Position numbers and translations under genes: made by a program
Shown: piece after piece, positions 7,896-38,483 of the stretch
Numbering within the stretch: the stretch's first letter is position 1
Layout of the letters: each line of letters opens with the position of its first letter
The notes under the pieces: generated by a model
What the model was told of the DNA's origin: nothing
The model's database searches: none
The model's input: only the letters and a program-made list of their open reading frames with translations
IMG/VR virus record: IMGVR_UViG_3300022602_000216
Span: 1-39,329 of that record
DNA length: 39,329 nt
Reading direction: 5' to 3' (one strand)
DNA from: a virus

Positions 7896-8459
7896 TTAGG
7901 CACCGTTTGGAGAACCAAACATTAAGTTATCTTTAGTAATCTCGCCGCTCTTAACTTTTTCAGCCAAATCAGCTAATGCTAGATTAATATAATCGTTTAG
8001 CGTGATGCCACGTTCGTGAGCGGCCAAAGCGGCCTGCAAGATGGTATTGTTATCTAAGGTAAGAGGCATCAACACTCCTGTGTCATAGTCTTCACCGTTT
8101 CTAATAGCAAGTGACTTGTCAATGAAATCATTATCAACTTCTAGATCTACGTAGTTAACATCGTCCCATGCTTCATTTAAGTTAATCCCACGAGCTAGAG
8201 ATTCTTTACGATGCTTTGCCTGCTTGTTCTCTGCAATCATACGATAAGCACGATTACGAGTATAGTCGCATACAGTGACTTCATATACCTTTTGTGTCTT
8301 AGTGCTGAATATAATATTAAAACTATATCCTCCCTTGCCATGAACACCATTCCAACTACTTAAATCATAAGCATTTGGTCCATAACATTCCCAGCAATAA
8401 TCATTGCCTTCAGTGATCTTATAGTCTACTAGTTCCATCCATTGTTGCATTGTAATCAT
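7896..8459 (-). CDS. unknown phage protein with a possible ribbon-helix-helix tail
   Basis: A 187-aa protein. The N-half carries WECYGPNAYDLSSWNGVHGKGGYSF and FSTKTQKVYEVTVCDYTRNRAYRMI, apparently a compact alpha/beta fold. Residues about 140-175 (ILQAALAAHERGITLNDYINLALADLAEK) look like an Arc/HicB-type helix pair, which often binds DNA or mediates dimerisation. It starts at 8459, overlapping the upstream zinc-ribbon gene. The function is not known. Confidence 0.6.
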   Translation of the reverse strand: MITMQQWMELVDYKITEGNDYCWECYGPNAYDLSSWNGVHGKGGYSFNIIFSTKTQKVYEVTVCDYTRNRAYRMIAENKQAKHRKESLARGINLNEAWDDVNYVDLEVDNDFIDKSLAIRNGEDYDTGVLMPLTLDNNTILQAALAAHERGITLNDYINLALADLAEKVKSGEITKDNLMFGSPNGA

Positions 8460-35625: not shown

Positions 35626-35720
35626 ATTTTATTAAAATACATTTATAGCTTTTGCTTATCTGCCGGTGCTCTGTCCTTACTACCTTAACTATATCAAGGT
35701 TAAATGTATTTTAATAAAAT
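35626..35720 (-). repeat. 20-bp perfect inverted repeat directly 5' of tRNA-Ala
   Basis: Arms 35626-35645 and 35701-35720 (ATTTTATTAAAATACATTTA and its complement) are perfect and enclose 55 nt. The loop holds ACCUU/AAGGU and other small stems. The hairpin ends 1 nt before tRNA-Ala. It contains no ORF. Probably an RNA processing or stability element. Confidence 0.8.
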
Positions 35721-35926
35721 GTCTAGCTACTTACACCACATAAGCCCTAGACTGAGCAGTTACTCTGTCCACAACATTTGTTCTTTTGGAAAGGTATTGT
35801 TCCTTACCTAATGCGTTCCCGGATCTCCTACATGAAGTCGGATGGTCATAGCACTACAAACCTAGCACTCTCTATGGTGACTGCCCCACCCACTTTCATA
35901 ACGTCAAAGTGTAAAACGGGTTTTCT
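35721..35926 (-). other. 206-nt structured non-coding stretch between tRNA-Leu and the inverted repeat
   Basis: No ORF of note. Possible hairpins on the minus strand: CACTTT/AAAGTG near 35890-35911, CATAG/CTATG around 35845-35877, and GUCUAG/CUAGAC with inner CUUA/UAAG at about 35722-35754. GGACAGAG occurs here and again in the neighbouring repeat loop. It could be one or more small RNAs or a degraded tRNA; I cannot choose. Confidence 0.4.
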
Positions 35927-36722: not shown

Positions 36723-36802
36723 TGGAGTAGAGGGTCGGATTCGAACCGACGAATCAACTGGTTTGCAATCAGTGCCATTAAGCCGTGCTCTGGTACCTCT
36801 AC
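36723..36802 (-). tRNA. tRNA-Cys(GCA)
   Basis: Acceptor GTAGAGG/CCTCTAC, loop TTGCAAA (GCA), discriminator U as required for cysteine, CCA encoded. The D-region is longer than usual (80 nt in total), and one anticodon-stem pair is mismatched. Confidence 0.82.
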
Positions 36803-36807
36803 ATAAT

Positions 36808-36927
36808 TCTCCATTGTGAAGTATACTCGTTGCAGGGTTCGAACCTGCTACCAATTACCGGCATTTCGAGCCGGGGCAGTCCCACACTATAACAAGGCCT
36901 TGTTAAAAGTATACTTCACAATGGAGA
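36808..36927 (-). ncRNA. 20-bp inverted repeat enclosing a tRNA-like fold
   Basis: Perfect 20-bp arms 36808-36827 and 36908-36927 surround 80 nt. Inside are a T-arm (GCAGG-TTCGAAC-CCTGC) 4 nt from the stem, an anticodon-like arm CCGGC/GCCGG with loop TCGAAAT (would read GAA, Phe, but with C instead of U at position 33), and a hairpin AACAA-GGCC-UUGUU. There is no CCA. The outer arm contains the CCA end of tRNA-Glu. This is a cloverleaf-like RNA with a 20-bp acceptor, or a decayed tRNA-Phe. Confidence 0.6.
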
Positions 36928-36996
36928 CGCATAGGGGAATCGAACCCCTCTTGCCAGGATGAAAACCTAGTGTCCTAACCGATAGACGAATGCGTC
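36922..36996 (-). tRNA. tRNA-Glu(TTC)
   Basis: Acceptor GACGCAT/ATGCGTC, loop TTTTCAT (UUC), T-arm AGGGG/CCCCT, encoded CCA after a U discriminator. Its last six nt are part of the adjacent inverted repeat, so hairpin folding would hide the 3' end. Confidence 0.9.
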
Positions 36997-38401: not shown

Positions 38402-38412
38402 GAGCACTTAGG

Positions 38413-38483
38413 GGTGACCAACGGGATTTGAACCCGTACTGACAAGGTCACAACATGTAGTGCTACCATTACACTATGGCCAC
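38413..38483 (-). tRNA. tRNA-His(GTG), no encoded CCA or G-1
   Basis: Acceptor GTGGCCA/TGGTCAC, loop TTGTGAC (GUG), C at position 73 as in histidine tRNA, but position -1 is T and the 3' end is followed by CCT. Both G-1 and CCA would have to be added after transcription. Confidence 0.85.

Follow-up and report, generated by a model that had tools for sequence, protein, structure and literature searches.

A perfect 20-bp hairpin in a viral tRNA cluster and a candidate class of hairpin RNA cassettes in phage tRNA arrays

The hairpin between tRNA-Glu and tRNA-Cys

The window analysed here is a stretch of 39,329 nucleotides of viral DNA (IMG/VR record IMGVR_UViG_3300022602_000216, positions 1 to 39,329). 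Between tRNA-Glu and tRNA-Cys, a perfect 20-bp inverted repeat encloses 80 nucleotides on the minus strand (Table 1). Only two perfect inverted repeats of at least 14 bp with a spacing of 10–150 nucleotides were found in the whole window; both measure exactly 20 bp, and both are located inside the tRNA cluster, 1.1 kb apart. By an arithmetic estimate, a perfect match of 20 bp within 200 nucleotides is expected by chance about 1e-5 times per 39 kb.

Table 1. Features of the two hairpins and of the neighbouring genes.
Feature	Position	Strand	Remarks
5' arm of the 20-bp helix	36908..36927	-	first six bases TCTCCA are the 3' end of tRNA-Glu including CCA
Loop (payload), 80 nt	36828..36907	-	tRNA-like parts
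16-nt perfect palindrome TAACAAGGCCTTGTTA	36890..36905	-	small hairpin on the 5' side of the loop; from sequence and fold
Anticodon-like arm CCGGC-TCGAAAT-GCCGG	36858..36874	-	GAA at 34-36, C33
T-arm-like hairpin GCAGG-TTCGAAC-CCTGC	36832..36848	-	
3' arm of the 20-bp helix	36808..36827	-	ends 5 nt ahead of tRNA-Cys
Upstream tRNA-Glu(ttc)	36922..36996	-	encoded CCA paired into the helix
Downstream tRNA-Cys(gca)	36723..36802	-	
Second cassette, perfect 20-bp helix, 55-nt loop	35626..35720	-	arms 35626-35645 / 35701-35720; directly before tRNA-Ala
Conserved RNA domain, about 205 nt	35721..35926	-	directly precedes the second cassette

The folded minus strand of 36808-36927 reaches -55 kcal/mol, compared with a mean of -33.1 for shuffled sequences (z -5.4; 0/200), and this high stability is due to the 20-bp stem. 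For the inner 80 bases alone, the stability does not exceed that of dinucleotide shuffles (z -0.23; 181/500). The original prediction had described the 20-bp stem, a T-arm and an anticodon-like arm with GAA and C33, all of which are present on the minus strand, and had also noted correctly that one arm of the stem overlaps the CCA end of tRNA-Glu. The stem is stronger evidence than the cloverleaf, in which the T-arm alone stands out.

Several protein genes of the minus strand lie close by. A gene for an aspartyl/asparaginyl hydroxylase (PF05118, 34139-34978) is located between the tRNA genes, and a row of 2OG-oxygenase genes is also present in S-CREM1. Three genes near the tRNAs (27851-28765, 29557-30021 and 30984-32060) encode a pair of RNA ligases from different families and a kinase-like protein with AAA_33, possibly an RNA repair set. 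A link between the ligases and the hairpins, by circularisation, was considered and rejected because PF09414 was found in just two of the 20 records tested.

The same site in a relative

A relative found by protein search (L016, the same record as L020) encodes a hydroxylase that is 81% identical to that of the window, and around the hairpin both have the local tRNA order Arg-Glu-[gap]-Cys-Asp. In the Glu-Cys gap of L016, a helix of 22 positions starts from the 3' end of tRNA-Glu and consists of 20 Watson-Crick pairs, one G-U and one A-C. The sequence of this helix is largely different from that in the window, and it encloses an unrelated loop of 195 nucleotides. According to the original prediction, a close relative that shares the tRNA order but has lost the arms would speak against it; in L016 the helix persists. 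Judged from the two sequences, the stem is conserved at the Glu-Cys site and the loop is exchanged. The second hairpin of the window has a homologue in L016 that is 82% identical; its stem shows one change that is compensated and one that leaves a wobble pair. A further copy of the 36808-36927 stem in IMG/VR (L225) is located in a region without tRNAs and was set aside as a coincidence.

tRNA-like parts of the loop

ARAGORN calls a tRNA-Phe(gaa) at 36824-36897 in which positions 1 and 72 are mismatched and the CCA is missing; the 5' acceptor strand of this call is the 3' half of the palindrome. Several features required of a tRNA-Phe are missing from the inner element, which has C33 and not U33, a mispaired 1-72 and no CCA. 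The Rfam tRNA model RF00005 detected 17 tRNA genes of the region and gave no match to the hairpin even at E<=10. The inner sequence is closest to the T-arms of phage tRNA-Asn, -Pro and -Ala (local score 36), and its best score against tRNA-Phe was 25 with a shuffled maximum of 28, which is the level of chance. With these results and the unrelated loop in L016, the suggestion that the element is a relic of a tRNA-Phe was rejected, since the sequence does not fit.

More generally, the element could have started as a functional tRNA, for Phe or for another amino acid, that exchanged its acceptor for the long stem and is now degenerating. Its T-arm and the ARAGORN call are consistent with such an origin, and so is the presence of real tRNAs in similarly long stems. 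The tRNA-His of the window (38411-38483, minus strand) has no encoded CCA, and with its flanks included its acceptor stem counts about 20 pairs, as is also the case in 13 other sequences. In Aeromonas phage AhFM11, tRNA-Asn, -His and -Asp are located within 21-bp extended acceptor stems, and Sinorhizobium phage Phosso carries, within a long stem, an element that resembles tRNA-Pro but has an altered T-loop (L227 984-1079, minus strand), which was missed by ARAGORN and is the nearest analogue of the 36808-36927 hairpin seen. These extended-acceptor tRNAs share with the hairpins described below a helix of about 19–21 bp that encloses an RNA in a phage tRNA array; however, what they enclose can be recognised as a tRNA, whose acceptor stem runs on into the helix, and the likeness seen is one of architecture and not necessarily of descent. 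Decay is made less likely by the chance-level similarity to tRNA-Phe and the missing RF00005 match, by a stem that is perfect and shows no decay, and by the exchange of the loop in L016. We consider a decayed tRNA quite unlikely.

A comparable T-arm was present in just three of 214 loops of such hairpins, with 0.25 expected; tRNA mimicry is rare across them, yet probably real in the member at 36808-36927. Selection on this 80-nt loop cannot be shown because it has no homologue in the catalogue of 64 loop families described below, and searches for exact matches to parts of it returned seven unrelated matches and then none.

Hairpins in other phage tRNA arrays

Two conserved pieces, used as patterns to scan IMG/VR, led to about 90 loci, of which most are phage tRNA arrays. 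An inverted-repeat scan of 89 loci (824 kb), for which the detector of the main catalogue rewards G-U pairs, gave about 93 hairpin occurrences with a score of at least 18 and none in local shuffles. The catalogue from these loci contains 127 distinct hairpins with 64 loop families, counts that are not independent since the records are mostly fragments and the phages share descent.

Fifty-four of the hairpins are anchored on the 3' end of a tRNA, and in 45 of them all three CCA bases are paired; many hairpins of the class have no CCA anchor. Pairing in the anchored set is near-complete from C74 to +16, somewhat lower up to +19 and lost at +20. From +3 onwards the paired fraction is 0.928, compared with 0.553 when the 3' arms are randomly dealt. 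A scan with one consensus stem found at least 119 stretches; among the matches listed, there were 133 matches with 97 different loops, 92 of the 133 have their exact start on the CCA of a tRNA called by ARAGORN, and the anchors are mostly tRNA-Lys(UUU) and tRNA-Gln(UUG). The upstream tRNA in the catalogue is Glu(UUC) 19 times (2.1 expected) and Lys(UUU) 17 times (1.1 expected), and this enrichment beside tRNA-Glu, -Lys and -Gln may be partly due to shared descent. Scoring all mismatches alike, with G-U unrewarded, we counted 83 G-U and 49 A-C on the tRNA strand; such an excess is expected if the RNA is under selection. The pairing data indicate that the helix of about 20 bp, with its sharp end and its foot often on the CCA of the upstream tRNA, is kept by strong covariation. 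The hairpin at 36808-36927 has such a helix, which begins at the CCA end of tRNA-Glu, and with high confidence we assign it to this class of hairpin RNA cassettes.

The loops are about 30–230 nucleotides long and their stability is hardly above that of shuffles (mean z -0.29). Dozens of unrelated loops are carried on such stems in other phages, and the loops are exchanged while helix and position persist. Several loop families are found again on different stems and in different phages, where they keep invariant motifs and covary internally. Stems that swap loops share the inner sequence AAACACA/TGTGTTT, and one 42-nt loop was found in two outer stems. Such swaps would also be compatible with a mobile cassette acting at the DNA level, in which the repeats serve as ends for recombination or transposition and the hairpin has no use as an RNA. 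However, G-U exceeds A-C on the tRNA strand, the loop families covary internally, and the hairpins have a fixed orientation and are anchored on the tRNA CCA; in addition, no target duplication or transposase was noticed, although these were not searched for systematically. A mobile DNA element is thus very unlikely.

The phages that carry the class are mostly uncultured and largely from freshwater. A T4-like major capsid gene (Gp23) was found in eight of 20 records tested, which are up to 364 kb long; the window is a fragment without Gp23.

The second cassette and its attached domain

With 23 members, the loop family of the second perfect repeat in the window is the largest of all. In 15 sequences of this family with 30 pairs, 97.3% of the cells are paired and 20 of the 30 pairs have changed on both sides, compared with 11.1 in shuffles; sliding of the partners lowers pairing to 27–45%. 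The RNA domain next to this cassette is found in many phages, has covarying helices of its own and ends in GGACAGAGTAACNGCTCAGTCTAGGGCTNNTGTGGTGNNAGTAGCTAGACA, usually followed by a hairpin cassette. It is also present in L020 near position 7981, and among the matches listed its core motif occurs in at least 80 IMG/VR stretches. Rfam 15 does not contain the domain, and its core was found in none of 84,980 prokaryote genomes.

These observations bear on another explanation of the hairpins, a mere processing spacer, in which the helix is a cut site between neighbouring tRNAs and the loop is filler without function. A spacer would account for the high diversity of the loops (64 families, and 97 on one stem among the matches listed) and for their folding, which is no better than that of shuffles. 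Furthermore, the length of the helix is that of a double-strand cut site, as for RNase III, and in some phages the tRNAs themselves are located within stems of 19–21 bp. Filler should not be conserved, however, and loop families do recur with invariant motifs and internal covariation; the conserved 205-nt domain attached to one cassette also argues for more than a spacer. We regard this explanation as somewhat unlikely.

Cultured phages and known RNAs

BLAST searches with the consensus hairpin and the domain of about 205 nucleotides against 50,697 phage records gave nothing significant, and similar hairpins of cultured phages were detected solely by direct scanning of tRNA arrays. T5-like phages have a 120-nt hairpin with a 20-bp stem and an 80-nt loop before tRNA-His, the sequence of which is present in 280 records; in the records viewed this hairpin (L229 4321-4440, minus strand) has no RNA annotation. 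In the tRNA array of Aeromonas phages, a hairpin with a 24-bp stem was found in 27 records (L230 4396-4504, minus strand); it is likewise unannotated and has a constant stem and a variable loop. Thus, stems stay and loops vary in both groups of cultured phages, and their hairpins are similar in architecture, though not necessarily in descent, to the class from uncultured phages. No such hairpins beside tRNAs were present in the arrays of T4, cyanophage S-CBWM1 and Erwinia phage Gravdalen.

Rfam 15, including introns, RNase P RNA, GOLLD and ROOL, had no match to the hairpins. No description of the class was found in Rfam or in the open-access papers searched, a scope that does not establish priority. 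The class is apparently unnamed; GOLLD and the T4 RNAs C and D are known examples of its kind, structured RNAs within phage tRNA arrays. The stable RNAs C and D of T4 (species 1 and 2 RNA) are 119–139 nucleotides long and located inside the T4-like tRNA cluster, and RNA C has a T-arm (CCGGG-UUCGAAU-CCCGG) resembling that of the window loop; however, no enclosing 20-bp helix and no CCA anchoring were found in them. GOLLD and ROOL are, like the class, structured phage RNAs of unknown function often located near tRNA islands, and tRNAs are sometimes present within the GOLLD linker (PMC12286853). They differ in being compact RNAs of hundreds of nucleotides, and their Rfam models do not match here. 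Long helices of leader and trailer also surround rRNAs that are to be released and are cut there by RNase III. The class differs from these processing stems in that it concerns small RNAs in tRNA arrays with a fixed helix of about 20 bp including the CCA, and its cutting would be by analogy.

Bacterial Y RNAs (YrlA) join a stem and a part that mimics a tRNA, and the hairpin might thus be a Y-RNA-like partner of a Ro/TROVE-like protein, possibly encoded by the phage itself. The window does contain a gene (26149-27537, minus strand) for a protein with DUF2828 and DUF7788 that is possibly related to Ro/TROVE, with a marginal, non-significant similarity to TROVE (E 1.4); its single-sequence predicted fold is too poor for comparison (pLDDT 39). 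However, only seven of the 20 records that contain the hairpins or the attached domain have DUF7788, and several records of 160–364 kb lack it. The YrlA model of Rfam had no match at the hairpins, and its weak sub-threshold matches overlap tRNAs. Since the partner is not general, a pairing of Ro protein and Y RNA was rejected and is highly improbable.

Processing and possible function

As a whole, the locus is best explained, with moderate confidence, as a hairpin RNA cassette placed between tRNA genes of large phages. Pairing of a tRNA CCA recurs in a covarying helix (in the 45 of 54 anchored hairpins), and it is therefore reasonable to regard the element as a processing hairpin, as originally predicted; the further idea that a decayed tRNA-Phe was captured in it is not supported.

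How such cassettes might be released can be outlined tentatively. The cassette would be co-transcribed with the tRNA array, and the helix would hold the 3' end of tRNA-Glu in a double strand. This duplex of two turns could then be cut, most likely by the RNase III of the host, as its length suggests; about two helical turns are near the usual minimum for RNase III, and no phage RNase III was found in the 20 records. RNase P would cleave at the 5' ends of the flanking tRNAs. Together these cuts would free the tRNA and release the loop as a small RNA, and in the member at 36808-36927 the loop, which copies the T-arm and an anticodon-like arm of a tRNA, may be offered to tRNA-binding proteins. 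Release by cutting of the two-turn helix is a possible course that we put forward with some reserve.

One of the defences that cut tRNAs acts on the CCA tail (PMC12851939). It is conceivable, but in our view unlikely, that large phages have a modular system of RNA cassettes, in which a common helix about 20 bp long, in many cases formed on tRNA 3' tails, presents interchangeable loops as decoys or inhibitors against tRNA-targeting defences of the host, with the CCA tail perhaps hidden until processing.

A phage tRNA array is commonly treated as a list of tRNAs, and many arrays also bear a recurring RNA element. Its geometry is strict, a helix of about 20 bp that in many cases begins at the CCA of the preceding tRNA, and its repertoire of exchangeable loops is large. 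The element bears on the maturation of phage pre-tRNAs and on the response of phages to defences that cut tRNAs, and since similar hairpins are present in cultured T5-like and Aeromonas phages, its processing and its role can be tested.
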